This document shows, piece after piece, positions 31,444 through 52,984 of a stretch of 64,000 nt of DNA. Location of the stretch: positions 124,001 through 188,000 of the forward strand of contig NZ_CP022707.1 in the NCBI RefSeq assembly GCF_025340265.1, given 5' to 3'. Position 1 is the stretch's first letter. Each line of letters opens with the position of its first letter. A program made the translations under genes and the position numbers. This DNA comes from Novosphingobium sp. 9. Its GTDB lineage: Bacteria > Pseudomonadota > Alphaproteobacteria > Sphingomonadales > Sphingomonadaceae. The notes beneath the pieces were generated by a model. It saw only the letters and a program-made list of their open reading frames with translations, did not search any database and was not told the DNA's origin.

Positions 31444-31519
31444 GCCGCTTTAGCTCAGTTGGTAGAGCACATCATTCGTAATGATGGGGTCACGTGTTCG
31501 AGTCACGTAAGCGGCACCA
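31444..31519 (+). tRNA. tRNA-Thr (anticodon CGU), CCA encoded
   Basis: 76-base cloverleaf: acceptor GCCGCTT (31444-31450) pairs with AAGCGGC (31509-31515), discriminator A, then CCA at 31517-31519. The D-loop contains AGCTCAGTTGGTAGAGC, the anticodon CGT is at 31477-31479 reading ACG codons, and the T-arm is CACGTGTTCGAGTCACG-like. An integrase gene follows 164 bases later, and this 3' end is the probable attachment site. Confidence 0.97.
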
Positions 31520-31643
31520 TTGCGTCCTTTGTCAAGCGCTTTTTTACTCCAAAAATCCCCGGAAATCAGGCATAATCGGGCATCGGCCATCCGGTGACGT
31601 CCCCCTTTATCCATCTACATCCGGGCAATTTGGGGGCCCCGAA

Positions 31644-31682
31644 TTGGGGGCCTTTTCGACAATTTCGAGTCGAGGCCCCCAA
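31644..31682 (+). promoter_or_regulatory. Inverted repeat directly before the integrase start
   Basis: Arms TTGGGGGCCT (31644-31653) and AGGCCCCCAA (31673-31682) are perfect complements, and inner TCGAC/GTCGA extend the stem with a two-base bulge. The right arm ends one base before the ATG at 31683, so the hairpin would hide the ribosome-binding region, or it may be an operator. Confidence 0.6.
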
Positions 31683-35179: not shown

Positions 35180-35301
35180 TTCGGCAGCCCTCTCCTGCGG
35201 CCTTGCATGGCCGCCTTTGCGCGTCGATCGAGATATTGTCCCTCGTCGATCGTCTCGCTCAAATGAGCCGTAGCGCGCGATTTCGCGCAAGCTGGCGTGA
35301 C

Positions 35302-35318
35302 CCGATAATGACTATCGG
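35302..35318. promoter_or_regulatory. Candidate LysR operator 1 (CCGATA-N5-TATCGG)
   Basis: Perfect 6-bp palindrome CCGATA/TATCGG with spacer ATGAC in the divergent promoter region between the channel and GMC dehydrogenase genes. Same core as the site at 35350-35366; related sites precede the LysR gene and the Rieske oxygenase gene. Confidence 0.6.
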
Positions 35319-35349
35319 CATTTCTGGGATGGCAGGGGAGCGGCCAATG

Positions 35350-35366
35350 CCGATAGCGACTATCGG
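35350..35366. promoter_or_regulatory. Candidate LysR operator 2 (CCGATA-N5-TATCGG)
   Basis: Same palindrome with spacer GCGAC; extended by one more base pair each side (GCCGATAG ... CTATCGGC). Centre is 48 bases from operator 1, so the two lie on about the same helical face if the regulator binds as a tetramer. Confidence 0.62.
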
Positions 35367-35527
35367 CAGGCTTGCATTGCGTCTTTCGGTAGTGCGGGCG
35401 AGGCATCGGGCAGCGAAAACAGGCGCCATTGCCCAAGCGATGGTCAAAAGGGACGAGCGATGCTGAAACCGGACTTATCTAGAACCCGTGCCATCATCCG
35501 ACTGGCGATCGGGCCGGGGTGCCGCCG

Positions 35528-37129
35528 ATGAGCGGGGCCTTCGATTATATCGTGGTCGGTGCCGGCAGCGCGGGCTGCGTCACCGCCGGGCGGCTGGTCG
35601 GCGAGCATGGCGCGCGGGTGCTGTTGCTCGAACAGGGGCCGGGTGACAGCCATGCCGTTATCCGGATGCCGGCGGGCAGCTTCAAAATGCTTTTCGCGCC
35701 GAGCCCCTTCGTCAAGCATTATGCCAGCGTACCGCAGTCCGAACTCGCAGGGCGCTCGGTCTCGGTGCCGCAGGGCAATGTCGTGGGCGGCGGTAGTTCG
35801 GTCAATGTCATGGCCTATACGCGCGGCTCGCGCCTTGATTACCAGCGCTGGGACGAGGCGCTGGGCGGTGGCTCAGGCTGGGACTGGGAGGGGCTGCTGC
35901 CCTATTTCCGCCGGCAGGAGGGGCATGTGCGGCTCGACAACGTGGCGCATGGCGGATCGGGACCGCTCAAGGTGCGTGATCCCAATTACCTCGCGCCAAT
36001 TGCCGGTGTGTTCCTCAAGACAATGCAGCGCCTGGGCCTGCCTTTCCGCGATGACTTCGCCGGTGGCGACCTGCATGGCATCGGGTATATCCCCACCACC
36101 ATCGACGGAGCGAAACGGTGCAGCGCGGCCGACGCTTTCCTGCGCCCGGTACAGGGCGACGCGCGGCTGACGCTGGTATGCAAGGCGCAGGTGACGCGGC
36201 TTCTGCTTGAGGGCTCCCGCGTGATTGGCGTCGAATATGCCGAGGGCGGCAAACTGCACCGCGCCACCGCCTCAGCCGAGGTGGTCCTTGCAGCGGGCGC
36301 CTTCGCTACGCCGAAGCTGCTGATGCTTTCCGGCATCGGCCCGGCTGATCACCTGCGCGAGCATGGCATTGCGGTCGCCGCCGATCTTCCCGGCGTCGGG
36401 CAGAACCTGCAGGATCACAATGTCACCTTCCTCACCGCCGAGACGCGGGGAAATTACGGGTATTACCGTGCCGACAAGGGGCGCAATCTTGTGCGCAACC
36501 TGCTGCATTACGGCCTGTTCGGCGGCGGCCCCATCGCCTCGAACGGCGCCGAGACGATGGGTTTCGTCAATCTGACCGATCCCTCGGCCGATCCCGATAT
36601 CCAGCTCTATTGCCTTGGCGTGATGTGGCCGGGCCTTGCCGCCGAGCAGCAGAAGCCGGGGCTGACGCTGATGGCCAATCTGGTCAAGCCGCTCTCGCGC
36701 GGGGCGGTACGGCTGCGCTCGGCCGATCCGGCCGAGGACCCCCTGGTCGACCTGGGCTGGTTGCGCGACACTTCGGACGAGGACCGGCTGCTCAGGGCAC
36801 TGCGCTATCTGCGCGAGATTGCCGCGACCGACCCGCTCGCCTCGATCATTTCCGCCCCGCGCCTGCCCGATCCACAGGTCACCGATGACGCGGGCCTGCG
36901 TGCCTTTATCCGCAGCAGCACCGAGAGCAATTATCATCCCGTCGGCACCTGCCGCATGGGGCGTGACGGTGACCCGATGGCGGTGCTCGATGCACGGCTG
37001 CGGCTGCGCGGCATCGAGGGTCTCCGGGTCTTCGATGCCTCGATGATGCCGGTGATCCCTTCTGCCAACACCAATGCGACGGTGATGGCCGCCGCCGACA
37101 AAGGCGTCGATCTGATGATGTCCGGCTGA
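35528..37129 (+). CDS. GMC-family FAD alcohol dehydrogenase/oxidase
   Basis: 533-residue flavoprotein oxidising an alcohol to an aldehyde. The FAD-binding start reads DYIVVGAGSAGCVTAGRL, followed by GMC signature 1 (VPQGNVVGGGSSVNVMAYTRG) and signature 2 (LAAGAFATPKLLMLSGIGP). The C-terminal catalytic region is YHPVGTCRMG ... VPS-like VIPSANTNATVMAAADKG, with the His and Asn typical of choline-dehydrogenase-like enzymes. ATG 35528 is preferred over GTG 35519 because of the upstream GGGG. It is followed by an aldehyde dehydrogenase, so an alcohol-aldehyde-acid sequence is likely. Confidence 0.92.
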   Translation: MSGAFDYIVVGAGSAGCVTAGRLVGEHGARVLLLEQGPGDSHAVIRMPAGSFKMLFAPSPFVKHYASVPQSELAGRSVSVPQGNVVGGGSSVNVMAYTRGSRLDYQRWDEALGGGSGWDWEGLLPYFRRQEGHVRLDNVAHGGSGPLKVRDPNYLAPIAGVFLKTMQRLGLPFRDDFAGGDLHGIGYIPTTIDGAKRCSAADAFLRPVQGDARLTLVCKAQVTRLLLEGSRVIGVEYAEGGKLHRATASAEVVLAAGAFATPKLLMLSGIGPADHLREHGIAVAADLPGVGQNLQDHNVTFLTAETRGNYGYYRADKGRNLVRNLLHYGLFGGGPIASNGAETMGFVNLTDPSADPDIQLYCLGVMWPGLAAEQQKPGLTLMANLVKPLSRGAVRLRSADPAEDPLVDLGWLRDTSDEDRLLRALRYLREIAATDPLASIISAPRLPDPQVTDDAGLRAFIRSSTESNYHPVGTCRMGRDGDPMAVLDARLRLRGIEGLRVFDASMMPVIPSANTNATVMAAADKGVDLMMSG

Positions 37130-37173
37130 CCCTGACTGCCGAGCCCATTGTCCCTGCCAAGAGGAGCATAATC

Positions 37174-38640
37174 ATGTCACCATTCCGGCCCGAGGCCGAA
37201 CTTAGCGAAGCCCTGCGCGGCGGTTTCTTGATCGATGGCGCCTGGCAGGCCCCGAAGGAAGGGCGGCAGGTCGACATCGTTTCGCCCGATACCGGCGAGT
37301 GCCTGCTCCGCCTGCCGCTTGCCGGGCCGGACGATGTCGATGCCGCGATCCGCGCCGCGCGTGCGGCCTTCGACCATGGTCCCTGGCCGCGCATGAGCGG
37401 CGCCGAGCGCGGCGAGGTAATCGCCCGCATCGCCGAAGGCCTGCGCGCGCACGCCGACCTGTTGGCCCGCCTGTGGACCGCGCAGATCGGCGCACCAGTT
37501 AGCTTTGCGCGGATGTTTGCAGGCTTCGCCGCACCGGTCTTCAATTATTTCGCCGATCTCGCGGGCCATTACGCCTTCGAGGAGACCCGACCCTCGCTGA
37601 CCGGCACCGCCCATATCCGGCGCGACCCGGTGGGCGTCGCCGGGCTGATCGTGCCGTGGAACGCTGCCTTGCCGCTTCTGTCCTTCAAGCTGGCAGCGGC
37701 ACTGGCGGCGGGCTGCACAGTGGTGGTCAAGGCGCCGGTCGAGACGCCGCTCGAAGCGCTGGTGATTGCCGAGATAGCGGCCGCGGCGGGGCTGCCGGCA
37801 GGCGTGCTCAATGTAGTGACCGGCGACCGCGCCGAGGGCGAGCGGATCGTCGCCTCGCCATTGATCGACAAGATCAGCTTCACCGGCAGCACCACGGCGG
37901 GCAAGGCGGTTGCGCGGGCCTGCATCGAGCGCATGGCGCGTTTTACGCTGGAACTGGGCGGCAAGTCGGCGGCGGTGCTGCTGGACGATGTACGACTGGA
38001 CAAGGTGTTGCCGGTGCTGGCGCCCTTCACCATGCCGCTTTCGGGGCAGATCTGCTTCGCGCAGACGCGCATCCTCGCGCCGCGCACGCGCTATGATGAA
38101 GTGGTGGCGGCCTATGCCGGCGTCATGCAGGGGTTGACGGTCGGCGATCCCTGGGCCGAAACCACGCATCTCGGCCCGCTCGCCAATGCACGGCAATTCA
38201 CGCGCGTTTCCGATTACGTGGGCATCGGCCAGAGCGAGGGCGCGCGGCTGGTCTGTGGCGGCGGACGCCCCAAGGGTCTCGATCGCGGCTTCTTCTTCTC
38301 ACCCACTGTCTTTGCCGATGTCACCCCCGACATGCGGATCGCCCGCGAGGAGGTGTTCGGCCCTGTGGTGGTGGTGATGGCCTATGAGGACGAAGCCGAT
38401 GCCTTGCGCATCGCCAATGCGACGGATTACGGCCTGACCGGCACGGTGTTCACCGAGGACCCTGCGCGCGGCGCCGCCTTCGCGCGGGGGATCGACGCAG
38501 GCGCGGTCACCGTCAACGGGCTAGAGATCGTGCCCGGCGTGCCGTTCGGCGGCACGAAACAATCGGGTATAGGGCGCGAGGGTGGTCCGGAAGGGCTGGA
38601 AGCCTATCTCGAGAGTCGGGTGGTCACCGTACCGGCGTGA
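37174..38640 (+). CDS. NAD(P)-dependent aldehyde dehydrogenase
   Basis: 488-residue ALDH superfamily enzyme. Rossmann motif VAGLIVPWNAALPLLSFKLAAALAAGCTVVVK, catalytic Glu in FTLELGGKSAAVLL, catalytic Cys in LSGQICFAQTRI, and EEVFGPVVVVM near the end are all present. A GAGGAG ribosome site precedes ATG 37174. It most likely oxidises the aldehyde made by the preceding GMC enzyme; the aromatic context suggests a benzaldehyde-type substrate, which is inference. Confidence 0.94.
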   Translation: MSPFRPEAELSEALRGGFLIDGAWQAPKEGRQVDIVSPDTGECLLRLPLAGPDDVDAAIRAARAAFDHGPWPRMSGAERGEVIARIAEGLRAHADLLARLWTAQIGAPVSFARMFAGFAAPVFNYFADLAGHYAFEETRPSLTGTAHIRRDPVGVAGLIVPWNAALPLLSFKLAAALAAGCTVVVKAPVETPLEALVIAEIAAAAGLPAGVLNVVTGDRAEGERIVASPLIDKISFTGSTTAGKAVARACIERMARFTLELGGKSAAVLLDDVRLDKVLPVLAPFTMPLSGQICFAQTRILAPRTRYDEVVAAYAGVMQGLTVGDPWAETTHLGPLANARQFTRVSDYVGIGQSEGARLVCGGGRPKGLDRGFFFSPTVFADVTPDMRIAREEVFGPVVVVMAYEDEADALRIANATDYGLTGTVFTEDPARGAAFARGIDAGAVTVNGLEIVPGVPFGGTKQSGIGREGGPEGLEAYLESRVVTVPA

Positions 38641-38703
38641 GTGTTGCCCAGCGCGGGGGAGACTTGGCACGGCCTTTCCCACGCCCAAAGAACCGAAAAA
38701 AGT

Positions 38704-38717
38704 AGATAGTGATTATT
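38704..38717. promoter_or_regulatory. Candidate LysR operator 3, upstream of the regulator gene
   Basis: GATAGTGATTAT at 38705-38716 matches the core of operator 2 (GATAGCGACTAT) except for two C-to-T changes. It is about 110 bases upstream of the LysR start, a place for autoregulation. Confidence 0.4.
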
Positions 38718-38825
38718 CGCGACAACGGGTTTACGCTGCCACGCCTGATCCCCTAGCTTGCCCGGCCAAGAGGATGCTGCAAGACGCGGGACCACCCGCG
38801 CGGCGATAGTGAGAGGTCAGATGCG

Positions 38826-39752
38826 GTGGAACTGCGCGATTTCGACCTGAATTTGCTACTGGTGATGGATGCCCTGTTCGAGGAAGGCACGCTGACGCGC
38901 GCCGCCCAAAGGCTGCGGCTGAGCCAGCCCACCATCAGCGCGGCGCTTGCCAAACTGCGCAGCCAGTTGGGGGACGAGCTGTTCATCCGTGCGAGCGGCA
39001 GCATGCAGCCCACGGCACGCGCGCAGGCCTTGCGGCCCGCCATAACCGGCATCCTGCAATCCGTGCGCAGCGATGTGCTGGCGCAGGCGGATTTCGCGCC
39101 ATCGACCTATCATGGCACGATCACGCTCAGCCTCTCGGATATAGGCGAGCTGGAGTTCCTGCCACGCCTGCTGGCCCTGCTCGAGGCCGAGGCGCCGGGC
39201 GCGCGGCTGCGCTCGGTAGTGGCCAATCCGCAGGATCTCGCGGCGATGATGGATGCAGGCGAGGTCGATCTGGCTATCGGCTATTTCCCCGATCTGGTCA
39301 CCGCTGTGTTCAAGCAGCAGCTGCTGTTCCGCCATGGCAGCGCCTGTATCGTGCGCAACGACCATCCGACGATCCGCAAGACTTTGACTCTGGAGGACTA
39401 TCTGGCGGCGCGTCATATCGCCGTGGCGCCGGCCGGGCGGCTGCGCGATGTGGTGGAGGCAACGCTCGCCGCGCAGCATCTGCACCGGGAGGTGGCGCTG
39501 GAGATTCCGCATTTCATCAATCTGCCGTTTCTCGTCGAGGCGTCCGATCTGGTGGCTACGGTACCACAGCCGCTGGCGCAGCAGTTCGCGCGGATCTGCG
39601 CATTGCGCGTCTTCGAGGTGCCTTTCGCGGTGCCGGCGCTGGAGATCAAGCAGCTCTGGCACAAGCGTTATGACGGGCATCCCCGCCTGCAATGGCTGCG
39701 CCGGATCGTCGCACGGGTGATCCAGAACCGGCCGCATCTCGGCGTGGCCTGA
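38826..39752 (+). CDS. LysR-family transcriptional regulator, GTG start
   Basis: 308-residue regulator. The N-terminal winged helix reads LRDFDLNLLLVMDALFEEGTLTRAAQRLRLSQPTISAALAKLRSQLGDELFIR, a NodD/LinR-type LysR start. The rest is a periplasmic-binding-like effector domain. It lies between the dehydrogenase pair (+) and the oxygenase/ring-cleavage genes (-) and probably controls both plus the channel gene through the GATA-N5-TATC palindromes. The inducer would be an aromatic substrate or intermediate. Confidence 0.9.
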   Translation: MELRDFDLNLLLVMDALFEEGTLTRAAQRLRLSQPTISAALAKLRSQLGDELFIRASGSMQPTARAQALRPAITGILQSVRSDVLAQADFAPSTYHGTITLSLSDIGELEFLPRLLALLEAEAPGARLRSVVANPQDLAAMMDAGEVDLAIGYFPDLVTAVFKQQLLFRHGSACIVRNDHPTIRKTLTLEDYLAARHIAVAPAGRLRDVVEATLAAQHLHREVALEIPHFINLPFLVEASDLVATVPQPLAQQFARICALRVFEVPFAVPALEIKQLWHKRYDGHPRLQWLRRIVARVIQNRPHLGVA

Positions 39753-39773
39753 ATCACCCGGCAGGCGCCCGTT

Positions 39774-41028
<1,255 letters not shown>

Positions 41029-41045
41029 GGCATGGCTCCGCCTGA

Positions 41046-42011
41046 TCACAGGTCGAGGACGAGCAGCGGCGTCTTCGCGCGCGAGCAGCAAGGCGTGAAC
41101 TGATCGTTGCTCGCGTGTTCCGCCGCGGTCATGAACATGTCGCGGTGATCGGGGATGCCTTCGAGCACGCGGGTGACACAGGTGCCGCACACGCCTTGCT
41201 CGCAGGAGACCGGCAAATCGATGCCCTGAGCCGCCAGCGCGTCGATCACCGGCTGGTCTGCGGCGACCGCAATGCGCTGGCCGGTGCTCGCGATCTCGAC
41301 GGTGAAGGCGCCATCCGCCGCCGTGGCTTCATGCGCTGTCGCGGCGAAGAATTCACGGTGCAGCGCAGCCTCGGGGAAGCCGGCGGCCTGCGCCGCGCCT
41401 AGCACCGCGTCGATGAAGCCGGCCGGGCCGCAGACATAGACATGCGCGCCTTCAGGCGCCTCCGCCAGCGCCGCGGCCAGATCGAGCGGGCCGCCGGCCT
41501 CGTCGTCGAAGTGGCATTGGGCCTGCTCCGCGAAGGGGGACGCGGTGATCCGGTCGAGGAAGGCGGCGCTCGCCCGGCTACGGCAGGCGTAATGCAGCGC
41601 GAAAGGCGTGCCCAGTGCCGACAGAGTTTCCGCCATGGCGAGGATCGGGGTGATACCGATGCCGCCGGCGAACAACAGGTGATGCGGTGCTTCGGCGGCG
41701 AGCGGGAAATGGTTGCGCGGCGCACTCACATGCAGGACATCGCCTTCATGCAGTTTTTCCGCCATGCTCGCGCTGCCGCCGCGCGAGGCGACCTCGCGCA
41801 GCACGGCGATGACATAGCGGTGGCGCTCGGCCGGCGCGTTGCACAGCGAATACTGCCGGATCAGTCCGGGCGCGGCTTCGACATCGATATGGGCGCCGGC
41901 GGTGAAGCCGGGCAATTCGGCGCCGTCGTCGGCGACCAGTTCGAAGCCGGAGACGTTGTCCGCCTCGGCCCATTTGCGTGCCACGCGCAGCGGTATCTGG
42001 GTAGTGTTCAT
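41046..42011 (-). CDS. Oxygenase reductase, VanB/PobB type (FMN, NAD, 2Fe-2S)
   Basis: 321-residue single-polypeptide reductase passing electrons from NADH to a Rieske oxygenase. Domains in order: FMN/FAD-binding barrel (HIDVEAAPGLIRQYSLCNAPAE, RYVIAVLREV), NAD-binding (HHLLFAGGIGITPILAMAETL, VYVCGPAGFIDAVL), and C-terminal plant-type ferredoxin (PVSCEQGVCGTCVTRVLEG plus a later CC) with the cluster cysteines. Start at ATG 42011; the longer frame has no support. It is downstream of and co-directional with the oxygenase. Confidence 0.93.
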   Translation of the reverse strand: MNTTQIPLRVARKWAEADNVSGFELVADDGAELPGFTAGAHIDVEAAPGLIRQYSLCNAPAERHRYVIAVLREVASRGGSASMAEKLHEGDVLHVSAPRNHFPLAAEAPHHLLFAGGIGITPILAMAETLSALGTPFALHYACRSRASAAFLDRITASPFAEQAQCHFDDEAGGPLDLAAALAEAPEGAHVYVCGPAGFIDAVLGAAQAAGFPEAALHREFFAATAHEATAADGAFTVEIASTGQRIAVAADQPVIDALAAQGIDLPVSCEQGVCGTCVTRVLEGIPDHRDMFMTAAEHASNDQFTPCCSRAKTPLLVLDL

Positions 42012-42066
42012 GGGATTTCCAGTTCTGTAGGGCGCCGGCCGCGCGGGCACGGCGCCCCGGGATGCA

Positions 42067-43374
42067 TCAGAGCGGCGCGAGCGCGAAAAGCGCTGGGTCT
42101 TTCGCGAGTTTCTCGACGAAAGCCTCCTTGCTCTCGCCTTCTGCCAGGTTGGCGGTAATCACCACCACGTCGGTCAGGTCGCTCGCTGCCGCGTCGCGGA
42201 ACACGCCGCGCGGGTCTTCGCCGGCGGCCACGGCCTGGCAGCCCTCGTCGAGCATACGGCGGGCGCGGACGATGGCGATGTCCGAAGAGGAGAGGTGTTC
42301 GTCTCTCTGATCGTGCACCTGGCCCTGGCTCTGGGTGATGACCACGTCATGCACCGAGAAGCACGGGCCGAGGCCAAGGTAATAACCGGCCTCCATCGAG
42401 GCGCGATCCTGGCCGTAGAGCGTCTCGGCGGTCCGGGTCATGCGATCGGTGCCGGGCAGCTTTTCGGCGCGATACTGGGTATCCAGCGCCTCCTTGGCGA
42501 GTTCGCCACTGCGGTGGAAGATGAACTCCCAGCGCCAGTGATGCTCGTTGTCGACCGGGACGTCCCACAACATGGTCGCGCCGCCCTCGCCAAGATCACC
42601 CTCGAAGCCGCCCACCGCGCAGGCATTGGGCATCACGAAATTGGTGACACGCAGCGAATTGCCACCCTCGGACAAGGCGCGCGTGGTGTAGATGCGGATG
42701 CCGAAACGTGTGTCCTCGACAGAGATTTGCGGGCGGGCGGTGTTCGAGAAGATGCCCCAGCGCGCCTGCATGTCGGCGCTGCCAAGCTCGATCTGGTGCA
42801 GATAGGACGTGTGCACCGGGTCGATGTTACCCTCGCTGGCCTGCAACCAGTTGGACTCGCCGAACCAGCGGCAAGTGTAGCGATAGGCCTGATCGCCGCG
42901 CAGAGCCGGAAAATCGGGAAACGGCGGCGCCTCGCCCGGCCCCAGATAGAGCCAGAAGGCGCCGGCCGCCTCATGCACCGGATAGGCGCGGGCCTTGATG
43001 CGGTGCTTCGCGGTGGGCGAGGCTTCGGCGGGCTGATCGAGCACGCTGCCGGCGCCATCGAACAGCCAGCCGTGGTAAGGGCAGCGTAGCCCGTCGCTCT
43101 CGACGCGGGCCAGCGCAAGATCGGCGCAGCGATGCGCGCATTTGCGATCGAGCGCTCCGACCTTGCCCGAACCATCGCGAAACAGCACGAGATCATCGCC
43201 CATGATGCGCAGGGGCAGCGGCGCGGCGCCTTCGGGCAGGTCGGTCACCAGCGCGACCGGCTGCCAGTAGCGGCGCAGCAACTCGCCTGCGAGCGTGCCG
43301 GAATTGGTGTCGGTGAGATATTGGTAGCGGCTGCGCGGATTGCGCGTGTCAGTATTGATCGGGGCGGTTGCCAT
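42067..43374 (-). CDS. Rieske non-haem iron aromatic oxygenase, phthalate/phenoxybenzoate-dioxygenase type
   Basis: 435-residue oxygenase alpha subunit. The Rieske centre uses C79-x-H81 and C98-x-x-H101 (KCAHRCAD, CPYHGWLF). The mononuclear iron site is NWLQASEGNIDPVHTSYLH, with H188 and H193 and bridging D185. The NWxQ...EG pattern places it with the phthalate 4,5-dioxygenase/PobA group rather than benzene dioxygenases, so no beta subunit is expected. GGAGGATCTGAC precedes ATG 43374. With the reductase and LigAB it could make and cleave protocatechuate; the true substrate (a carboxylated or methoxylated aromatic) is not determined. Confidence 0.92.
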   Translation of the reverse strand: MATAPINTDTRNPRSRYQYLTDTNSGTLAGELLRRYWQPVALVTDLPEGAAPLPLRIMGDDLVLFRDGSGKVGALDRKCAHRCADLALARVESDGLRCPYHGWLFDGAGSVLDQPAEASPTAKHRIKARAYPVHEAAGAFWLYLGPGEAPPFPDFPALRGDQAYRYTCRWFGESNWLQASEGNIDPVHTSYLHQIELGSADMQARWGIFSNTARPQISVEDTRFGIRIYTTRALSEGGNSLRVTNFVMPNACAVGGFEGDLGEGGATMLWDVPVDNEHHWRWEFIFHRSGELAKEALDTQYRAEKLPGTDRMTRTAETLYGQDRASMEAGYYLGLGPCFSVHDVVITQSQGQVHDQRDEHLSSSDIAIVRARRMLDEGCQAVAAGEDPRGVFRDAAASDLTDVVVITANLAEGESKEAFVEKLAKDPALFALAPL

Positions 43375-44222
43375 GTCAGATCCTCCATAATACCCGCCAG
43401 CGTTTTCCGCTGTTCTCGGGATTGGCTCGGAATCTAGGGCGGCCCGCAGCCCTAAACCACGCAAGATCGCCGATGACGGCTATCAGGGAATTGCGGTTAC
43501 AGAACCAAAACCGGCTTCTCTCCCGGTGGTTTGTGGGGGAGAAAGCCACTCAATGAAGGTGTAAAAAACACTTAGGGAGGCGTCCGTGTCGGCGGCTGGC
43601 GATGATAAGGACTGGTCGTGCAACATCGGCGGTTGAATGTCGGAGAAAGGTCAGTTTTTCTAGAACGCAACGCCTGGACTGGGACTTTGTGCTCGGTCCG
43701 GTTTGGAGCGCCAAAGTGGCAATAGCGGACCCTGGAACGGCGAGACTGTATGTTTCGATGCTATGGGTCACCGACTAAAACATCTTAGGATCACGATGGA
43801 CTGGCATGCGCGATGCGCGTCCGCTCAGTCACCGACGGCCTAGTGCTCAGTTGGGCGCAGTTCGATCGACGGGCGCCTAAAGCTTCAGTACCGCCCACGC
43901 CTCCTCGATAATGATGTTGGCACTGACCGGGTCTGATCTGGTCAGCTCAATAAAAGCCTTGCCGCATGCAGTGTGCGGCGCATGGGGTCCTGTGAGGTCA
44001 GCGATAACGTCCAGCGCCCGGCTCCGGATGATTTTGGTGCGCCCGTTGGCCACTAGCTCGAGTTGGCTGGCGAGCGAGCGGATCAGGCGGGAGCGGTCTG
44101 TGCGAGGCCACGGAAGTAGAGTGGATTGACGAAAATCGATGGCTATAAATCGCAAAAAGCCATAGGCTCGCTTCGAATTGGGGGTGTATCGGCCCGCTCG
44201 GCTCGGTACAGAAGGTTTTATA
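43375..44222. other. 848-bp region without a convincing gene; one doubtful frame on -
   Basis: Upstream part holds the Rieske promoter region and an imperfect GGCTT.../...AAGCC hairpin near 43512-43548. A - strand frame at 43877-44338 encodes a sequence whose C-terminal half (LVANGRTKIIRSRALDVIADLTG ... ANIIIEEAWAVLKL) looks protein-like, but it lacks a good start and its first part runs antisense into the ATPase gene. It may be a gene remnant. No other signal was seen. Confidence 0.5.
43470..43487. promoter_or_regulatory. Candidate LysR operator 4, upstream of the Rieske oxygenase
   Basis: CCGATGACGGCTATCAGG resembles operators 1 and 2: GAT, five variable bases, CTATC, then GG. Ten of 13 core positions match operator 1. 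It is about 96 bases upstream of the oxygenase start. Confidence 0.35.
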
Positions 44223-45293
44223 ATGGCATCGGCACAGCAACTCATAGGTCTCGTCAAGAGCCACGCGGAAGGCGATGCCGATCGATTTTTCGATCTTGCG
44301 ATGCAATTGTCTGCGGCTGAGGACCAGAAGGGGCACAAGCGGCTCGCCGAGCAATTAAGGCAGTGGGCCGAGGCTGGGCAGGAGGCCCCGGCAAGCCGGG
44401 TTCCTGTCCCGACACCGATTGCAGCGCCTCGCGGTGATCTGGCGCAGTTATTGGTCGCATCCTATCCGGGCACCCGCCTTGGCGATGTCATCCTGCCATC
44501 GCATATCGAGGATGAGCTTGCCCACATCGTCGTCGAGACGCGTCTGCGCGAAAAGCTCGAGGAGAAGGGGCTGAAGCCACGCCGGCGCTTGCTGCTGTCG
44601 GGGCCTCCAGGAACCGGTAAGACACTGAGCGCCTCGGCGCTGGCGGGCGAGCTCCAGTTTCCGCTATTTTCCGTAATGCTTCATGGTCTCATCACCAAGT
44701 ACATGGGCGAGACAGCGCAGAAACTGAAGATGGTCTTCGACGCCATCAAGACCACCCGGGGAGTTTACCTTTTCGACGAGATCGATGCACTTGCCGCTGC
44801 GCGGGGTGACGGGAACGATGTGGGCGAAGCGCGCCGTGTTTTGAACTCGTTCCTGCAATTTCTCGACGAGGATACCGGTCCTTCGATCGTCGTTGCAACC
44901 ACGAACCTGGCCGCAATTCTAGACCGCGCCGTTCTGCGCCGTTTCGACATGGTCATGCCGTTTGAATTGCCTGATTGCAAGGCCATCCGCCAAGCGATCG
45001 AGCGACGCCTCGTGGGGTTCTCGACGTCCCGAGTGCGCTGGGAGAAGGTTCTCGAGTTGGCCTCGGGCCTCTCGACCGCCGACGTGGTTTCGGCAGCGGA
45101 AGATGCAGCGAGGCGCGCGGTCATCGCGGACAAGGAAGCGATTGCAACCGGGGGGTTGCTTGAAGCGCTGGTCCGCAGACGCACGCTTCAGGCATTAGGG
45201 GGTGATGAGTTTGCCGAGAAATCTGCCGCATTTCCAACTTCAGGGCTGGGGCGCGCCCGAAAAGTTCCGGTCAAAAATTCCGGGCAGGGGTAA
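44223..45293 (+). CDS. ietA: AAA+ ATPase of an IetAS-like defence pair
   Basis: 356-residue cytosolic AAA+ ATPase. Walker A GPPGTGKT is at 127-134, Walker B VYLFDEIDAL at 181-190, then sensor-like VVATTNLAAILDRAVLRRFD with the arginines. The N-terminal segment (QQLIGLVKSHAEGDADRFFDLAMQLSAAEDQKGH) resembles AAA proteins that sit next to S8 proteases in defence islands. It overlaps the protease gene by about 90 bases. By architecture it matches the described IetAS antiphage module; no homology search was possible, so the name is tentative. ATG 44223 chosen by similarity of the N-terminus and position. Confidence 0.75.
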   Translation: MASAQQLIGLVKSHAEGDADRFFDLAMQLSAAEDQKGHKRLAEQLRQWAEAGQEAPASRVPVPTPIAAPRGDLAQLLVASYPGTRLGDVILPSHIEDELAHIVVETRLREKLEEKGLKPRRRLLLSGPPGTGKTLSASALAGELQFPLFSVMLHGLITKYMGETAQKLKMVFDAIKTTRGVYLFDEIDALAAARGDGNDVGEARRVLNSFLQFLDEDTGPSIVVATTNLAAILDRAVLRRFDMVMPFELPDCKAIRQAIERRLVGFSTSRVRWEKVLELASGLSTADVVSAAEDAARRAVIADKEAIATGGLLEALVRRRTLQALGGDEFAEKSAAFPTSGLGRARKVPVKNSGQG

Positions 45294-47685
45294 GCCTCCC
45301 AGCGACGTCGCGGACCGCGCTGGACATGCGATAGCTCTGCTCAGTGCAATCGACGCTCTTCCGAATTTTCGGGGCCAAGGCGAGCCGGGAATTTACCTCG
45401 AAATTGCCGGACGGCCAAATGAGCCGTTGAAGCGAGGAAGCCTTGATGCGAGCGGGCTTTCGCTCCTGAAATTTGAGTCTGGGTCCACCGAGACGGGGGA
45501 CCGCGAGCTGGCCACGGTGTTCGCGACGCCCAAGGGTATTGCGAACCTTCGGCAGAAGGTGGAACAATTTGGTTCGGAAGACATGCCGGATCGGGAGAAG
45601 GACGGCGTCATCATTCCCGGGCGTCCCAAGAACGCGGACCTTGTCCAAAGCCTTGGAGCCATCACTGAGGCCGGACTTCGAGGCCTGTGGCGCAGTCCTG
45701 CGGCAGCTTTTCCGGCTGATGAAGGGGCGCAGTTCTGGGAAATTTGGCTCGATCCTGAGTGCGCCGCTGCATTTGTGGAAAAGGCACCGGCCTTCGGGGT
45801 GACCATCGGAGCCGAGCGATTGCTTTTTCCGGAAGACATCGTGGTCCTTGCGCAGGCCACCCGCGATGTCCTCGCGCTTCTGATCCGGCGCGCGCAGGGG
45901 ACAAGGGCGCTGGCGGTCCCGGCGACCACCGCTGACTTCTTCGATGGCCTTCCGGTCCAGGAACAGACCGCGTGGGTGGGAGAGATGGCGAGGCGCACGC
46001 AGTACGACGTCGATCCCGATCCGGGCTTTGTGACCCTGCTCGATACCGGCGTCAGCCGGGCGCACCCGCTCCTGCAGCCGGCCCTCCACCCGGACGACCG
46101 GTTCGCGGCCAATTTTGCGTGGGGGGTCGAGGACGTGAAAGGTCACGGCACGCAGCTTGCAGGTCTCGCCCTGTTCGGTGACCTCACCTTTACGCTGCAG
46201 CAATCCGGACCGGTGACGGTCCGCAACCGACTGGAGTCGGTCAAGCTCTTGCCTGATGCGGGCGTGAACCCGCATCACCTGCTTGGCGCAGTCACGCGTC
46301 AGGCGGTTGACGCGGTCGAAGTCACTTGGCCGCGGCGGCGGACCTTCACGATGGCAACCACCACGGGCGAGGACAGTCCGCATGACGGAGCGCCGACATC
46401 GTGGTCGAGTGAGGTGGACCAGCTTTGCGCAGGCATCTCCGGCAATATCCCGCACAAGCGTCTGATCCTCGTTTCTGCGGGCAACACGGACAACTTCAAG
46501 TTTGGTGCGGGAGATTATCTCGCGACGTGCGATCACGCCGACAATGAGATCGAGTCTCCGGCGCAGGCCTGGAATGCGATCTGCGTGGGCGCTTATACCG
46601 AGAAGACGGCATTACCTGCGGCGGATAGCCTGTCGCATCTCGCACCGTTTGGGGACCTCTCGCCTGCCTCGCGGACTGCGTCGTGGACGTCGCAATGGCC
46701 GCTTAAGCCCGACATCGTGATGGAAGGGGGAAACTGGGCGGTTGCGAGTTCTCCGCCGCCGATGCGGCATGGCTGGCTATCGTTGCTGACGACGCATCAC
46801 TTGTACCCGGAACGCTCGTTCCAGTTCACGTTCGATACGAGCGCGGCGACCGCTCTTGCGGCCAAGCAAATCACTGAGCTCTGGACGGATTATCCGGCTT
46901 TCTGGCCTGAGACGATCCGCGGCCTGTACGTTTCGTCGGCCCGCTGGACGCCGCAGATGCGCTCGCATTTGCCGCACTCACCTTCCAAGGGCAGCTACGC
47001 CCGTCTTTTCCAGCGCTACGGGTACGGGGTTCCCGACCTCGAACGGGCGCGTCGCAGCGCTTCCAATGCGCTTACGCTGGTGGTCGAAGATACGATCCGC
47101 CCCTATGGGTTTTCCGATAGTGGCAGCGACGTTCTCAACGAGATGAAGTTCTTTACCTTACCCTGGCCGGTGGAAGCGCTTCGCAAACTCAATGATGCCC
47201 AGATCAAGCTGCGGGTCGCTCTGAGTTCCTTCGTGGCGCCCAACCCATCGGAGAATGCGCGCGGCAACCGCTATCGCTATGCGTCGCACAATCTGCGCTT
47301 CAAGCTCAACCGCGCAGGGGAGAAGGCACTTCAGTTCAAGGCACGTATTAGCAAGCTTGCCGAACAGGTAAACGGCCCAACGACGAGCGAGGAGGACAAC
47401 TGGACGTTTGGCAGCGACCGTCGGGATGTGGGTTCGCTCCATATCGACGAATTGACGGGTAAGGCGTCCGACCTTGCAAGGCGTAATCTGCTCGCCGTGC
47501 ATCCCGTGACGGGATGGTGGAAGTCCAAGTCTTTCCTGAGGCAGTTCGCCGACGAAGTGATGCCGCAGGTGCGCTTTGCCCTCATCGTCGAGATCGACGC
47601 CGGAGAAATCGAAACCGACCTGTATGCCGAGGTAAAGTCGGCGATAGAGGCGATGACTGCGACGCGAAATGCTATCGAGAACTGA
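45205..47685 (+). CDS. ietS: Subtilisin-like (S8) serine protease of an IetAS-like defence pair
   Basis: 826-residue protein with an S8 peptidase domain in its middle. Counting from the GTG at 45202, the triad is Asp281 (TLLDTGVSRAHP), His315 (VKGHGTQLAG) and Ser547 (TFDTSAATALAAK), with the oxyanion Asn at 428 (SAGNTD). The roughly 250-residue N-terminal and 250-residue C-terminal regions are unassigned. No signal peptide is seen, so it acts in the cytoplasm, unlike secreted subtilisins. It starts inside the ATPase gene in another frame (GGGGGTGATG), so expression is coupled. GTG 45202 is an alternative start. Confidence 0.8.
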   Translation: MSLPRNLPHFQLQGWGAPEKFRSKIPGRGKPPSDVADRAGHAIALLSAIDALPNFRGQGEPGIYLEIAGRPNEPLKRGSLDASGLSLLKFESGSTETGDRELATVFATPKGIANLRQKVEQFGSEDMPDREKDGVIIPGRPKNADLVQSLGAITEAGLRGLWRSPAAAFPADEGAQFWEIWLDPECAAAFVEKAPAFGVTIGAERLLFPEDIVVLAQATRDVLALLIRRAQGTRALAVPATTADFFDGLPVQEQTAWVGEMARRTQYDVDPDPGFVTLLDTGVSRAHPLLQPALHPDDRFAANFAWGVEDVKGHGTQLAGLALFGDLTFTLQQSGPVTVRNRLESVKLLPDAGVNPHHLLGAVTRQAVDAVEVTWPRRRTFTMATTTGEDSPHDGAPTSWSSEVDQLCAGISGNIPHKRLILVSAGNTDNFKFGAGDYLATCDHADNEIESPAQAWNAICVGAYTEKTALPAADSLSHLAPFGDLSPASRTASWTSQWPLKPDIVMEGGNWAVASSPPPMRHGWLSLLTTHHLYPERSFQFTFDTSAATALAAKQITELWTDYPAFWPETIRGLYVSSARWTPQMRSHLPHSPSKGSYARLFQRYGYGVPDLERARRSASNALTLVVEDTIRPYGFSDSGSDVLNEMKFFTLPWPVEALRKLNDAQIKLRVALSSFVAPNPSENARGNRYRYASHNLRFKLNRAGEKALQFKARISKLAEQVNGPTTSEEDNWTFGSDRRDVGSLHIDELTGKASDLARRNLLAVHPVTGWWKSKSFLRQFADEVMPQVRFALIVEIDAGEIETDLYAEVKSAIEAMTATRNAIEN

Positions 47686-47967
47686 GGCTGGTGCACCAGC
47701 ATCGTTGGCGGTTCACACGTGGCGATCGCAGGTCGCACATGTCATCGGGGCGAAGGCTGCGTGCAGGCCGGCGTAAATGCTCCCAGGCCCGCGTGTGCCT
47801 TGAGGAGCTGGTCCTGATCTGTCGATGGCATTTGGTTTGTCACGTATATGAGGCGACCCCGCGCAAAAAGATCAGCAAAGGCGAGGCTAGTTGAGGCCCT
47901 GCAACGCACGTGCGAGCGAAAGGTCGTCGACACATCGTCGACTTGGTTTACGATTGGATATAGCGGA

Positions 47968-48600
47968 ATGGATCTTGGAAACGCCGCGACTTGGTTGGCG
48001 CCTCTCGTCGCATTGACGATCGGGACGGTCACCGCCCTGCTCACCGGTATCAACCTGGTAGTTGGCAAGGAGAACAAGGTCAGCGAATTCAGGCAGGACT
48101 GGATCAACGAACAGCGCAAGGACCTCGCCGCGGCGTTGGCCGCTGCACAGGCCTATCGCGGGTCCAAGGATGACAGGCGGGTGGAGCAGCTGCTTGCGTT
48201 CGACGCAGCACAGGTGCGCGTCGAGTTGCGTGAGAATCCGAATAAAGAGGAATGGACAGAGGTTAGAGCAGCTCTAGCCCAGCTCAGGAGCGATTTACTC
48301 GAGGGCACGCTCGACGACGCCAAGATCGCGCAGCATCGTGATGCCGTCTTACTGCATGGACGACTGCCGCTTAAGAATAACTGGACCGTCGTGAAGAATG
48401 GGGAAATTTGGTTTCGGGTGTTCAAGATTGCGTATGTGACGGTGATCACGATATTCATCCTCATTGCCGTTGGATGGATGATCACGGCGACGTTCCGGAC
48501 GCGCACAATTCGCACCCACCAGATTCAGAAATCGCAGGGCAGCAGACCGGCGTTGTCGGCATCTTCGTCGCAGGCGCCGAAATTACCGGTCAGGAAATAG
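47968..48600 (+). CDS. Two-helix membrane protein, unknown function
   Basis: About 210 residues. An N-terminal membrane helix (AATWLAPLVALTIGTVTALLTGINLVVG) is followed by a cytosolic helical domain beginning KVSEFRQDWINEQRKDLAAALAAA, then a second helix (IAYVTVITIFILIAVGWMI) and a basic tail. The FRQ-W-I-N-x-x-R pattern after the first helix occurs in many small, uncharacterised two-helix proteins. ATG 47968 is chosen because it begins the hydrophobic segment; the frame is open from 47848. It lies 280 bases after the protease on the same strand, so it may be a third component of the defence locus or an unrelated island gene. Confidence 0.65.
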   Translation: MDLGNAATWLAPLVALTIGTVTALLTGINLVVGKENKVSEFRQDWINEQRKDLAAALAAAQAYRGSKDDRRVEQLLAFDAAQVRVELRENPNKEEWTEVRAALAQLRSDLLEGTLDDAKIAQHRDAVLLHGRLPLKNNWTVVKNGEIWFRVFKIAYVTVITIFILIAVGWMITATFRTRTIRTHQIQKSQGSRPALSASSSQAPKLPVRK

Positions 48601-49054
48601 GCTGGCTGACGTTCGGCAGGTCCCGGCGAGCCTTGGATATCCAGAATCGGTAAGCTGCCGGTCCGCACCTGAGAGCGTAAAATTGGCGACTGAGCGGTTA
48701 GAATGCGGCGAACTTGTAGGCGGCAGTTGGGGACAAAGTGGCCGATCCAGCTGGGCGACTCGAACGTCAGGTTTTCCCAGAACTCGACGTTTGCTGGCGT
48801 AGCCTCTCGCATTCCTGAAGTAGCAGGTCTAGCCCTCACTTCACCTCGGCTGGGATCACCAGCCGACCCACACGTCGTTCACACTAGCAGTCACCGCAGT
48901 CGCGCTGGTATGAACGCGACACTTACAGGTCAGTTGGCGGAATGGCGCTTCAGCATCACCGGACCGACGCCTTTGCGGAAAGGCCGGTTTTGGAAGCGGA
49001 TGAACCGGAGCAGACACCCGTCTTCTCGACTTGAAGTCAGTTCATGGCGTGATC
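48601..49054. other. 454-bp region with no clear gene
   Basis: A - strand frame at 48525-48839 (ATPANVEFWENLTFE ... AERQPAYFLTGNFG) has plausible codon use but overlaps the end of the membrane-protein gene, lacks a good start and matches no family I recognise. It could be the tail of a decayed gene. Nothing else is supported here. Confidence 0.4.
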
Positions 49055-50182
49055 CTAAAGCTTAACTGTATCGTTTCGGGCAGCGAAAGGAAGAGTTGGC
49101 ACCTCTTCAATCGGCCAGTTGAAGTCGGTCAGGCGCCGTGCCGGGCACGCAATCGCCGTCGCCCTACGGCCACGAAACTCCCGGTCAAGACGGCTCTCAT
49201 CAATCTTGTTGCCGACGGCTTCCCACATGCGGAGCCGCTTTCGAAAAGCGATCTGGAGGGCGTCAGATTTGACCGACACTTCATCCTGCCAATCATCTGG
49301 CACACTCTCAGGCTTCACATTCGTCAGCACAGCATGATCTTCGGTGAATATCCGCATGTTCCGCTTGATGCTGTCTCTATCGAACAGCCAATGCCGAAAG
49401 AAGCTGCGTCCCATCATCCAGATCGTCCGGGTTCGGTTGCGATCTACTGGGACATGAGCCGATGCGATGAACACTCTCCATCCCTTGCGCGGCTCAAGTT
49501 CCAGGAATGTACACGGTCCGGACAAATGAAACGAAGGACGCACAACGACAGCCGTGCGGTTTGCCCCTTTCTTCGACGATAGCCACGACCGGATCGGTCG
49601 ATGCATGACCATCCGCGCGCTTCCCTCCCAATCATCAACTTTCACATCGAAGGCGTCAATGTCGGGATTGTCCGGGTCTCCGAAGCTTGTTCCATGGACG
49701 AACGGCGCATGCGCGAAATCAAGGCCATTTTCCATGACCCGATCCCAGCTCACGTCCCAGTCGAACCGGCCGCGCACCAAACGTATCGATGGATCGTCAA
49801 CCCACGGCAGCTTTGGTATCGGTGGTCGCTCCGCGTCAGGCAGGTCGCCGAGAAATGCCCAGATCCAGCCATAGCGCTCGATGATCGGGTAAGAGTCGAC
49901 ACGCGCCTTGGCCGGTATGCGCAATTGAGGTTGGGCGGGAATGGCGACACACCGCCCATCAACGCCAAAGCGCAAGCCGTGATAGGGGCATTCCACGGAG
50001 TCATCAACGATACGCCCGCCCGACAGAGCACCGCCGCGATGCACGCAGGTGTCGGACAGCAACCGTGCTGCTCCGGACCTGTCCCGGAACGCAACAAAAT
50101 CCTGTCCTAGCATGCGTACAGGACGAGGCGCGGCAGACACGTCACCGGATGCTGCGACGACAAACCAAGAGTTCTTAAGCAT
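49055..50182 (-). CDS. Second Rieske non-haem iron oxygenase (vanillate-demethylase-like)
   Basis: 375-residue oxygenase. The Rieske ligands are C46-x-H48 and C65-x-x-H68 (TCVHRGG, CPYHGLRF). The iron site ENGLDFAHAPFVHG supplies H158 and H163. The NGLDFAH form and size fit the VanA/dicamba-demethylase/pheophorbide-oxygenase-like branch. No reductase gene is adjacent; the divergent ferredoxin at 50365 is a possible electron donor. Less GC-rich codon use than the core genes suggests a separate origin from the first oxygenase cluster. Confidence 0.9.
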   Translation of the reverse strand: MLKNSWFVVAASGDVSAAPRPVRMLGQDFVAFRDRSGAARLLSDTCVHRGGALSGGRIVDDSVECPYHGLRFGVDGRCVAIPAQPQLRIPAKARVDSYPIIERYGWIWAFLGDLPDAERPPIPKLPWVDDPSIRLVRGRFDWDVSWDRVMENGLDFAHAPFVHGTSFGDPDNPDIDAFDVKVDDWEGSARMVMHRPIRSWLSSKKGANRTAVVVRPSFHLSGPCTFLELEPRKGWRVFIASAHVPVDRNRTRTIWMMGRSFFRHWLFDRDSIKRNMRIFTEDHAVLTNVKPESVPDDWQDEVSVKSDALQIAFRKRLRMWEAVGNKIDESRLDREFRGRRATAIACPARRLTDFNWPIEEVPTLPFAARNDTVKL

Positions 50183-50364
50183 AACGACCGTTACGCTTAT
50201 CGACGAGCATATGGGCTGGCAACATCAGGTCGTCGTGAGAAAGCTTGCAGCTTCGACGTCGCCCCAAGATGCGGCAGCGTTATAACCGAAAAGCGGCGCC
50301 TGCAGACCAGTTGAATTCGTCCATGTAGCCTAGCGTCAAAGAAGCACCTTCCTACATTGAGGAA

Positions 50365-50694
50365 ATGGTCCGCTCCATATCCGCTAACACCCGAGACGTG
50401 GTACTCGTCTGCAGCAAATGCTCGAAGAAGCTTGGTGGAGGCTTTGGCAAGAAAGGTGACAAGCCGCTGGCGAAGGAACTGCGCAAGCTGGCTGGCACCA
50501 AAAACGGGCGCAAATCGAACTTGCTCGTTGTTGAAACACGCTGCCTGAAGGTTTGTCCGAAAGGTGCCGTTGCGGTCGTCGATGCGAAAGCGCCTGACAG
50601 GTGGCTCCTAATTCCTGCGCAGACTGACGTAGAGGCCGTTGCGGAAAGAATCGGCATTTTTCCTACCTCGGAAGTTCAAAAAATGCGCGAATGA
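50365..50694 (+). CDS. Thioredoxin-fold [2Fe-2S] ferredoxin-like protein
   Basis: 109 residues with four cysteines in the pattern C16-x2-C19 ... C60-x3-C64 (LVCSKCSKKLGG, ETRCLKVCPKGAV), as in thioredoxin-like 2Fe-2S ferredoxins. VVLVCSKC and CPKGAVAVVD are the recognisable parts. It is divergent from the second Rieske oxygenase with 182 bases between starts, and may feed it electrons. A role with that oxygenase is inference. Confidence 0.75.
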   Translation: MVRSISANTRDVVLVCSKCSKKLGGGFGKKGDKPLAKELRKLAGTKNGRKSNLLVVETRCLKVCPKGAVAVVDAKAPDRWLLIPAQTDVEAVAERIGIFPTSEVQKMRE

Positions 50695-50886
50695 GTCCGA
50701 AGTTTGGTAAAACCCTCACACAACGTCTTATTCAGTTAAAGCATTTGATATTTAAGGATATAATTCAACATTCACGACATGACTGGCCTTTAACGACTAA
50801 GGTTAAATTTTTTTGGAGACCTGAATGGGGCCTCGAGAATAAATTAGATCAAAAACATCTTTAATATCAAAGAGATAGAAATTAAT
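50695..50886. other. AT-rich gap at the right end of the island
   Basis: About 190 bases of clearly AT-rich sequence (runs such as TTAAATTTTTTTGG near 50803 and ATCTTTAATATC near 50860) between the ferredoxin gene and the putative attR. No gene. Such AT-rich ends are common at island boundaries. Confidence 0.5.
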
Positions 50887-50905
50887 TTCGAGTCCCGTAA
50901 GCGAC
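50887..50905. repeat. Putative attR of the tRNA-Thr island
   Basis: TTCGAGTCCCGTAAGCGAC matches the tRNA-Thr 3' segment at 31497-31515 in 17 of 19 positions. The same bases also open an 8-bp palindrome (TTCGAGTC, 8-base loop, GACTCGAA, 50887-50910), which is a competing explanation. Confidence 0.5.
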
Positions 50906-50942
50906 TCGAACTGCCGCCACTGAAATCAAAGGAGAAATCGCT

Positions 50943-51104
50943 ATGCAGGATGAGGATACCCACGAAAATCCGGGTGAGCCTCACGTAAGCGCACCACCTG
51001 CCTTAAAACACTTCCACAAGGACATCGGCGGTTTCCCAGCCAAAGCGGCTTTCTCCTTGGACGGCGCTTGGGTCAAGGTTGGGCGGGTTTCCAAGGCTGG
51101 TTAG
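50943..51104 (+). CDS. Small protein, 53 residues, unknown
   Basis: ATG at 50943 with a strong ribosome site (AAAGGAG, nine bases upstream) opens a frame to TAG at 51104. The product begins MQDEDTHENPGEPHVSAPPA and continues LKHFHKDIGGFPAKAAFSLDG; it is acidic then basic, soluble, with no recognised domain. It lies just outside the putative attR, so it may be a disrupted-side resident gene or the first gene after the island. Confidence 0.6.
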   Translation: MQDEDTHENPGEPHVSAPPALKHFHKDIGGFPAKAAFSLDGAWVKVGRVSKAG

Positions 51105-51349
51105 CGCCCACTTAGTCACATCATGTCGAAACGAATTTGAGTGCGACGCAGGTTGCTCAAATTTGTCACCTGCCTCTTCCTGCCAACCTTACGCGACACC
51201 TGTTATCGGCCGCCGGCGGGCCACAGCCGTCACTTCAAGGCTCCCTGCTTCGACCGCACCTGCAGCGTGAAAATCTCGGTGAGAGCCGGCAACCGGGCGC
51301 ACCTTGCACAAGTCCTCATAACCGCTGCACGCTCACGTTGCCGCCCATT

Positions 51350-52984
51350 CTACGGCACCAGTACGGTATCGAGCGGAGGGGCCGTCATCCCCGGATAATC
51401 CAGCGTATAGTGCAGGCCACGACTTTCATGGCGCTTCAAAGCCGAAGCCACGATCAGGTCAGCACTCTGCAAGAGATTGCGCAGTTCGATCAGGTCAGTC
51501 GAGACGCGGAAGTGCCGATAATATTCCTCGACCTCGCCGTTCAGCATCTGGATACGATGCATGGCGCGTTCCAGGCGTTTCGTCGTGCGCACGATGCCGA
51601 CGTAATTCCACATGAAGCGGCGGATTTCGCCCCAGTTCTGCTTGATCACGACTTCCTCGTCCGAGTCCGTCACGCGGCTTTCATCCCATGGACGAACCGC
51701 CGGCGGCGCCTCGAACCTCGCCCAGTTATCGAGAATATGGGTTGCCACCGCATCGCCGAACACAAAGCATTCGAGCAGCGAGTTCGAAGCGAGGCGGTTC
51801 GCGCCATGAAGGCCGCTTTCCGTGCACTCGCCCGCCGCATAGAGCCCCGGCAGGTCGGTACGCCCGTCGAGATCGACCAGCACGCCACCGCAGGTGTAGT
51901 GCTGCGCGGGAACGACGGGGATCGGCTCCTTCGTCATATCGATGCCCAGCCCCAGCAACTTCTCATGGATGTTCGGGAAATGCTCTTTCACAAATTCCGG
52001 CGGCTGATGGCTGATGTCGAGGTGAACGTAATCGAGGCCGTAGCGCTTGATCTGGTCGTCGATGGCGCGCGCAACCACGTCGCGTGGCGCCAGCTCGGCG
52101 CGCTCGTCATAGTCGGGCATGAAGCGGTGGCCCGTGATGGGGTGCTTCAGGTGCCCGCCCTCGCCGCGAACAGCTTCGGTTATAAGGAAATTCTTGACCT
52201 CAAGGCTGTAAAGGCAGGTCGGGTGAAACTGCATCATCTCCATGTTGGAGACCCGCGCACCCGCCCGCCAGGCCATGGCGATGCCGTCACCGGTGGCGCC
52301 GCGCGGCGCCGTGGAAAACTGATAGACGCGGCCCGCCCCGCCGGTGGCGAGCACCGTGGCACGCGCGACATGGGCCTCGACCCGGCCGCTTTCCTCATCG
52401 AGGGCGTAGACACCCCAGACCCGGCCCGAGCCCGAATAGCGTTGTTCATGGCGCCCGGTGATGAGATCGATGCACGAACGACCGGGCAGCAGCGTGATAT
52501 TGGGGTGCGCCTCGGCCGCGCGCAGCAGTGCCTGCTGCACGGCCCAGCCGGTCGCATCCGCGACATGGACGATCCGGCGATGGGAATGGCCGCCCTCGCG
52601 CGTAAGATGCAGCGAATTGCCATCCGCATTGAAAGGCACGCCCAGTTCGACAAGGCGCTCGATCGCGCGCGGGGCCCGTTCGATCACGAATTCCACCGTC
52701 TCACGCCGGTTAAGTCCGGCACCGGCGACCATCGTGTCCTCGATATGGTCCTCGAACGTGTCCCCGGCATCGAGGACCGCTGCGATCCCACCCTGCGCCC
52801 AGGCTGTTGACCCTCCGGTGAGGCTGCCCTTGGCCAGCACCAACACCCGACAGGTCTGCGCCAGCGCCAGCGCGGCGGTGAGGCCGGCCGCACCGGAGCC
52901 GATCACGATCACATCCCACGCCTGCGATGGCGCCACATCGCCCTGCCCGACAGCCATGGGACCGACCTGGTCTTCGAGGTGCAT
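51350..52984 (-). CDS. nadB: L-aspartate oxidase (NAD biosynthesis)
   Basis: FAD enzyme oxidising L-aspartate to iminoaspartate, the first step of de novo NAD synthesis; 544 residues. FAD motif WDVIVIGSGAAGLTAALALA, substrate segments GSTAWAQGGIAAVLDAGDTFEDHIEDT, EGGHSHRRIVHVADATGW, and GVLVDLDGRTDLPGLYAAGECTESGLHGANRLASNSLLECFVFG are diagnostic of NadB over fumarate reductase. nadA and nadC are not adjacent here. The region 51105-51349 downstream holds no gene. Confidence 0.96.
   Translation of the reverse strand: MHLEDQVGPMAVGQGDVAPSQAWDVIVIGSGAAGLTAALALAQTCRVLVLAKGSLTGGSTAWAQGGIAAVLDAGDTFEDHIEDTMVAGAGLNRRETVEFVIERAPRAIERLVELGVPFNADGNSLHLTREGGHSHRRIVHVADATGWAVQQALLRAAEAHPNITLLPGRSCIDLITGRHEQRYSGSGRVWGVYALDEESGRVEAHVARATVLATGGAGRVYQFSTAPRGATGDGIAMAWRAGARVSNMEMMQFHPTCLYSLEVKNFLITEAVRGEGGHLKHPITGHRFMPDYDERAELAPRDVVARAIDDQIKRYGLDYVHLDISHQPPEFVKEHFPNIHEKLLGLGIDMTKEPIPVVPAQHYTCGGVLVDLDGRTDLPGLYAAGECTESGLHGANRLASNSLLECFVFGDAVATHILDNWARFEAPPAVRPWDESRVTDSDEEVVIKQNWGEIRRFMWNYVGIVRTTKRLERAMHRIQMLNGEVEEYYRHFRVSTDLIELRNLLQSADLIVASALKRHESRGLHYTLDYPGMTAPPLDTVLVP

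Follow-up and report, generated by a model that had tools for sequence, protein, structure and literature searches.

A divergent IetAS-type ATPase-protease pair in Novosphingobium sp. 9 and a separate membrane-protein gene downstream

The IetAS-type pair and its closest described systems

The IetAS antiphage system joins an ATPase, IetA, to an S8 (subtilisin-type) protease, IetS, encoded in that order, and its founding paper is reportedly that of Gao et al. in 2020. Here we describe an IetAS-type pair, followed by a gene for a small membrane protein, in a 64,000-nucleotide (nt) stretch of Novosphingobium sp. 9 DNA (contig NZ_CP022707.1, positions 124,001 to 188,000; genome 4.39 Mb), which we call the window; coordinates refer to the window and all features lie on its forward strand. 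Of two papers, one says that the mechanism of IetAS awaits description (PMC9958689) and the other that it remains unknown (PMC11878078); the latter also reports IetAS from a Pf prophage with the highest association with resistance and classes it among toxin-antitoxin systems. For this system of undescribed mechanism, our analysis delimits a mostly alphaproteobacterial subfamily.

The ietA-like gene (44223-45293) encodes a classic-type AAA+ ATPase of 356 residues from an ATG, with a possible alternative in-frame TTG start upstream at 44178, and carries the Walker A (GPPGTGKT), Walker B (YLFDE) and sensor-1 (TTN) motifs. It overlaps by 89 nt (45205-45293) the ietS-like gene (45205-47685), an S8 protease of 826 residues from an ATG, or of 827 from an alternative GTG at 45202, whose catalytic domain (46030-47028; Pfam PF00082, residues 277-609 of the 827-residue frame) holds the triad Asp280 (46042-46044), His314 (46144-46146) and Ser546 (46840-46842) and the oxyanion residue Asn427 in the 826-residue numbering. 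Neither gene is a chance reading frame, because both match Pfam strongly (AAA, E = 1.3e-30; Peptidase_S8, E = 4.2e-42), and all three genes, including that for the membrane protein, are present with open frames. The initial annotation, made from the DNA letters and their open reading frames, had described an ATPase with intact Walker motifs overlapping an 826-residue protease with an intact triad, and both descriptions stand; its residue numbers (281, 315 and 547) are one higher because they fit the 827-residue version that begins at the GTG one codon upstream. It had also called the starts coupled, and here the overlap is plain, while translational coupling of ietS to ietA through it may be expected. 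A simple hydropathy scan shows no transmembrane (TM) segment in IetS, which by its sequence appears to be a protease without an evident export signal.

The search with IetA and IetS profiles that the initial annotation called for, run with those of PADLOC, matched both proteins: PDLC02196 aligns with residues 17-338 of the 371-residue IetA frame (E = 5.8e-69), more strongly than any housekeeping AAA model, and PDLC02198 with residues 276-823 only of IetS (E = 5.9e-27, 92 bits), so that no IetS profile matches the first 275 residues. Scores on the NCBIfam equivalogs (IteA/IteS) fall under the cut-offs, at 196.2 bits against 510 for NF042959 and 38.2 against 900 for NF042956. These cut-offs are narrow, since three other IetAS pairs scored in the same way as yardsticks, from Sphingobium sp. 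TKS, Cupriavidus necator H16 and Sphingobium sp. YC-XJ3 (loci L074, L092 and L093), all fall under them too; the YC-XJ3 IetS reaches 401 bits on the PADLOC IetS profile and covers almost all of it, and the TKS IetS has no NCBIfam match at 1e-5. Because the PADLOC profiles match and the NCBIfam scores are too low, the window pair is IetAS in the sense of PADLOC and lies outside the strict family of NCBI. The earlier naming of the pair as IetAS-like thus holds by both profiles, by the adjacent same-strand order of ietA then ietS and by the intact Walker and Asp/His/Ser residues, but for a divergent pair that scores far below the equivalog cut-offs.

Taken together, these observations lead us to favour, with a probability of roughly 70%, a two-gene IetAS-type module that works as proposed in what follows, the membrane gene being separate cargo. 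IetS would be restrained by its own N-terminal unit; upon infection IetA would spend ATP on remodelling IetS or on supplying it with substrate, and active IetS would cleave host or phage proteins and so end the infection. A low-confidence model of IetS places ferredoxin-like units at its N-terminus, one of which resembles a subtilisin propeptide (residues 156-240; 45670-45924), and a jelly-roll-like region at its C-terminus (residues 619-803; 47059-47613), both through weak fold matches; in a sequence comparison with solved structures the IetS profile found none at E 0.001. The model tentatively suggests that the catalytic domain of IetS is preceded by a propeptide-like unit and followed by a jelly-roll region. 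Both are usual in subtilases; the ends of the protease may still act as sensors, as the initial annotation had suggested, but that is not the default reading. Should the propeptide-like unit prove real, a concrete question follows, namely whether IetA releases IetS from autoinhibition.

A subfamily with a long gene overlap, and its possible roles

Trees of IetS and IetA (30 rows each) both unite the window with the same ten others in one clade (support 98/100 and 100/100), although long branches, that of L093 above all, make the deeper branching order unsafe. The pair belongs to a mostly alphaproteobacterial IetAS subfamily, and a long ietA/ietS overlap marks its clade, with 89 to 95 nt in most members measured and 59 nt in one (L078). 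Six close relatives on plasmids (L070 and L072-L076) have overlaps of 95 nt, as do, by their annotation, L095, L096 and L099; L032 and L002 share up to 104 nt of open frame, and in 16 more distant genomic loci the shared open frame ranges from -71 to +37 nt. Within the overlap the tail of IetA is variable and the N-terminus of IetS (PRxLxHF) is better conserved, which suggests that the overlap more likely serves coupling than IetA function.

Homologues of IetS (E 1e-30 or better) are patchily distributed, occurring in 19 of 396 genomes sampled from the order and in 7 of 385 from the class, two samples that partly overlap and each include the window's own genome; a search for related loci among genome contigs gave one locus. 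Relatives of IetS stand on 423 of 72,556 plasmid records and in two phage records, one of them nearly full-length and 58% identical. The gene immediately upstream of ietS is an ietA homologue at 18/19 genomic loci (L002 and L032-L049), the exception being L047, whose IetS frame has 522 residues, and at all 19 plasmid loci, which were hand-picked from the match lists and in two of which (L077 and L097) ietS is split; the class-level loci L063-L068 fell outside this inspection of neighbours. Across 20 distant IetS rows His, Asn and Ser are conserved throughout and Asp in 19, the other row having a gap; a closer alignment of 34 rows shows the first three residues without exception and Asp in 33, with Glu in the other; alignment A2 took in 32 of the 120 IetS relatives among the matches listed. 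The Walker A, Walker B and sensor positions tested in 19 IetA rows are invariant save for one hydrophobic position.

The AAA domain of IetA resembles those of Cdc48/p97 and FtsH, IetS is divergent, and the plasmid neighbours of the pair are mostly non-defence genes, which would fit a regulated-proteolysis or quality-control module that is carried on mobile elements like other AAA+/protease pairs and acts independently of infection. We consider such a role unlikely, given that the IetA profile outscores every housekeeping AAA model and that the distribution is patchy. Plasmids bear on a second alternative, in which freed IetS would be lethal to cells that have lost the element or encountered a rival one, making the pair a maintenance or toxin-antitoxin-like module of plasmids or islands: of the 423 plasmid records that carry an IetS relative, 311 are typed as conjugative, the overlap of the genes would keep the two proteins at a set ratio, and PMC11878078 classes IetAS among toxin-antitoxin systems. 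In the loci inspected, however, no antitoxin-like gene recurs beside the pair, and we regard this alternative as quite improbable. An IetAS-type module acting in defence remains our preferred reading.

Among close plasmids the neighbours of IetAS recur solely between related plasmids. On four roseobacter-type plasmids (L070, L071, L072 and L080) IetAS occupies a constant site between a DUF2493 gene and DUF736/DUF6878/strawberry-notch genes, and on two Sphingobium plasmids (L074:8503-11718 and L075:8503-11718) genes for His-Xaa-Ser radical SAM maturation (hxsB and hxsC) lie convergent beside it. Another Sphingobium plasmid has a TIR-domain gene and an unnamed gene convergent beside an IetAS that scores strongly with PADLOC (L093:5674-8750).

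The membrane protein downstream of ietS

On the strand of ietS and 282 nt beyond its end lies a gene (47968-48600) for a two-helix membrane protein of 210 residues; the initial annotation had described it with an FRQ-WIN motif, and it belongs to an unnamed family that we call SEFRQxWIN. The frame could open at 47848 (250 residues), but the ATG at 47968 is the best start because a 79% identical homologue (P0002) aligns from there and codon scoring agrees. Six database relatives at E 0.001, one of them its own copy, show that it is not a chance frame, and its nearest named relative is from Sphingomonas. The family is built as TM1, a four-helix bundle and TM2, with the SEFRQxWIN motif conserved just past TM1 and an LKxxW...GE motif just ahead of TM2 (alignment A3, from which 7 of 72 members were excluded, namely the own copy and rows that were short, long or among the weakest).

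The same annotation had suggested that this protein could be a third component of the system. In such a role it might anchor IetS/IetA at the membrane or be a substrate that, once cleaved, executes cell death. Its strand and its position would fit, and in the 282-nt gap a single promoter-like site and a single terminator-like site do not exceed the chance level. Its family profile, however, finds nothing in the 38 other IetAS loci, which were searched with some 4-8 kb on either side, or less where a record ends, even though, as a control, the broad family profile recovered the window gene twice (as the window and as L059) and L050-L056, missing the two weakest candidates (L057 and L058). The co-occurrence that the initial annotation wished to see checked extends to no second genome: in the order sample the membrane family occurs in 10/396 genomes (two weak) and IetS in 19/396, and in the class sample in 3/385 and 7/385, and in both samples the two meet solely in the window's genome, against 0.5 genomes expected by chance in the order sample. 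Within the genus the family is present in 7 of 195 genomes, and it stands without IetAS elsewhere, in that the stretches read around its six other genus loci contain neither IetA nor IetS (the genus-only genomes among them were not searched whole for IetS). Besides the membrane gene, no third gene was seen by eye to be shared among 18 genomic IetAS loci (L047 not included) within up to two flanking genes per side, and a partial search of the literature found no report of a third IetAS gene. A three-gene system is on this evidence highly improbable; we judge the membrane gene to be separate cargo, and leaving it out of IetAS spares others a false third component and marks its family as worth a study of its own.

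The four-helix bundle is probably cytosolic, as the charge pattern of the sequence suggests, and no output domain follows TM2. There is no Foldseek match and nothing in a viral fold library at E 0.001, and 11 rows from a sequence comparison of the family profile with solved structures (E 0.02-0.71) were dismissed as chance. Its Z scores to the four-helix-bundle sensor domains of PcaY, QseE and NarQ lie inside the noise stated for helical bundles, and it differs from these in lacking an output domain after TM2 and in the cytosolic bundle that its charges suggest. Homologues are found in none of 50,697 phage records and in 4 of 72,556 plasmid records (best 51% identity). Once the weak loci L057, L058, L062, L088, L090 and L091 had been dropped, 11 other family loci were kept (L050-L056, L069, L086, L087 and L089), and 4/11 have PADLOC-recognised defence genes within about 3.5 kb. 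These are Gabija at L051, a type II methyltransferase together with a weak match to a restriction enzyme at L052, a restriction-modification enzyme of type IIG at L087 and, at L069, an ATPase annotated as TrlF that matches Ppl. The scan covered 20 chosen neighbours, none of them at L055, L056 or L089, whose neighbours were judged housekeeping by eye only, which makes the count 4/8 scanned loci; it has no control and is a lead rather than an enrichment. One may speculate, with little confidence, that these proteins are solitary, infection-responsive effectors working alone, single-gene cargo among defence genes such as IetAS here and Gabija or restriction-modification elsewhere. At two loci (L050:8503-10072 and L051:6346-7909) a two-gene pair of about 193-215 and 307 residues with similar N-termini adjoins the SEFRQxWIN gene, and in one case Gabija lies on the opposite side; PADLOC matches none of the proteins that were tested, the L050 pair has no Pfam match, and the pair is possibly an undescribed system.

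Genomic setting and comparison with known systems

A tRNA-Thr gene (31444-31519), the likely integration site, and a tyrosine integrase region in two reading frames (31683-32896) lie 12 kb upstream of the pair; Pfam and PHROG matches fall on 31922-32896, and 31683-31877 is a separate open frame. Together (31444-32896) they are likely the boundary of an integrated element that may be immobile, or else reflect an assembly error. Per 2-kb window the G+C content is 0.54-0.63 at 43001-52000 against 0.65-0.67 at 35001-43000, and it is lowered also at 32-36 kb and 52-57 kb. A search between 31400 and 64000 for a repeat of the tRNA end, which would locate the far edge, gave none, and no empty site of the element was found. 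The module probably sits in a horizontally acquired chromosomal stretch. On its two sides (39968-43464 and 49055-50182) stand genes for a ring-opening dioxygenase (LigA/LigB), a ferredoxin-reductase-like protein and two Rieske oxygenases, which suggests that IetAS was inserted into a cluster for aromatic catabolism or next to one. From 43.4 to 49.1 kb, sites resembling promoters or terminators do not exceed the chance level, and an Rfam scan gave tRNA only.

Secreted, stand-alone subtilases such as Tk-SP, KP-43 and SubHal share the S8 core with the window IetS and give the weak fold matches to its N-terminal unit and C-terminal region; the window protein differs from them in its lack of a TM segment by hydropathy and in its AAA+ partner. 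With the described IetAS system the window pair shares the order of ATPase then S8 protease, an IetA that covers most of its profile, and intact Walker and catalytic residues; it departs from it in the partial match of IetS, in the long gene overlap and in scores under the equivalog cut-offs, as is also the case for the three yardstick pairs. Closest are the alphaproteobacterial plasmid pairs, for example those of Sphingobium sp. TKS pTK1, Sagittula sp. P11 and Phaeobacter inhibens M633, whose IetS proteins are 68-69% identical to that of the window and whose 95-nt overlaps resemble its own, with the first two standing in its clade. These pairs, however, are plasmid-borne and have no membrane gene beside them, whereas the window copy lies in a 3.0-Mb contig near a tRNA-Thr gene and an integrase.
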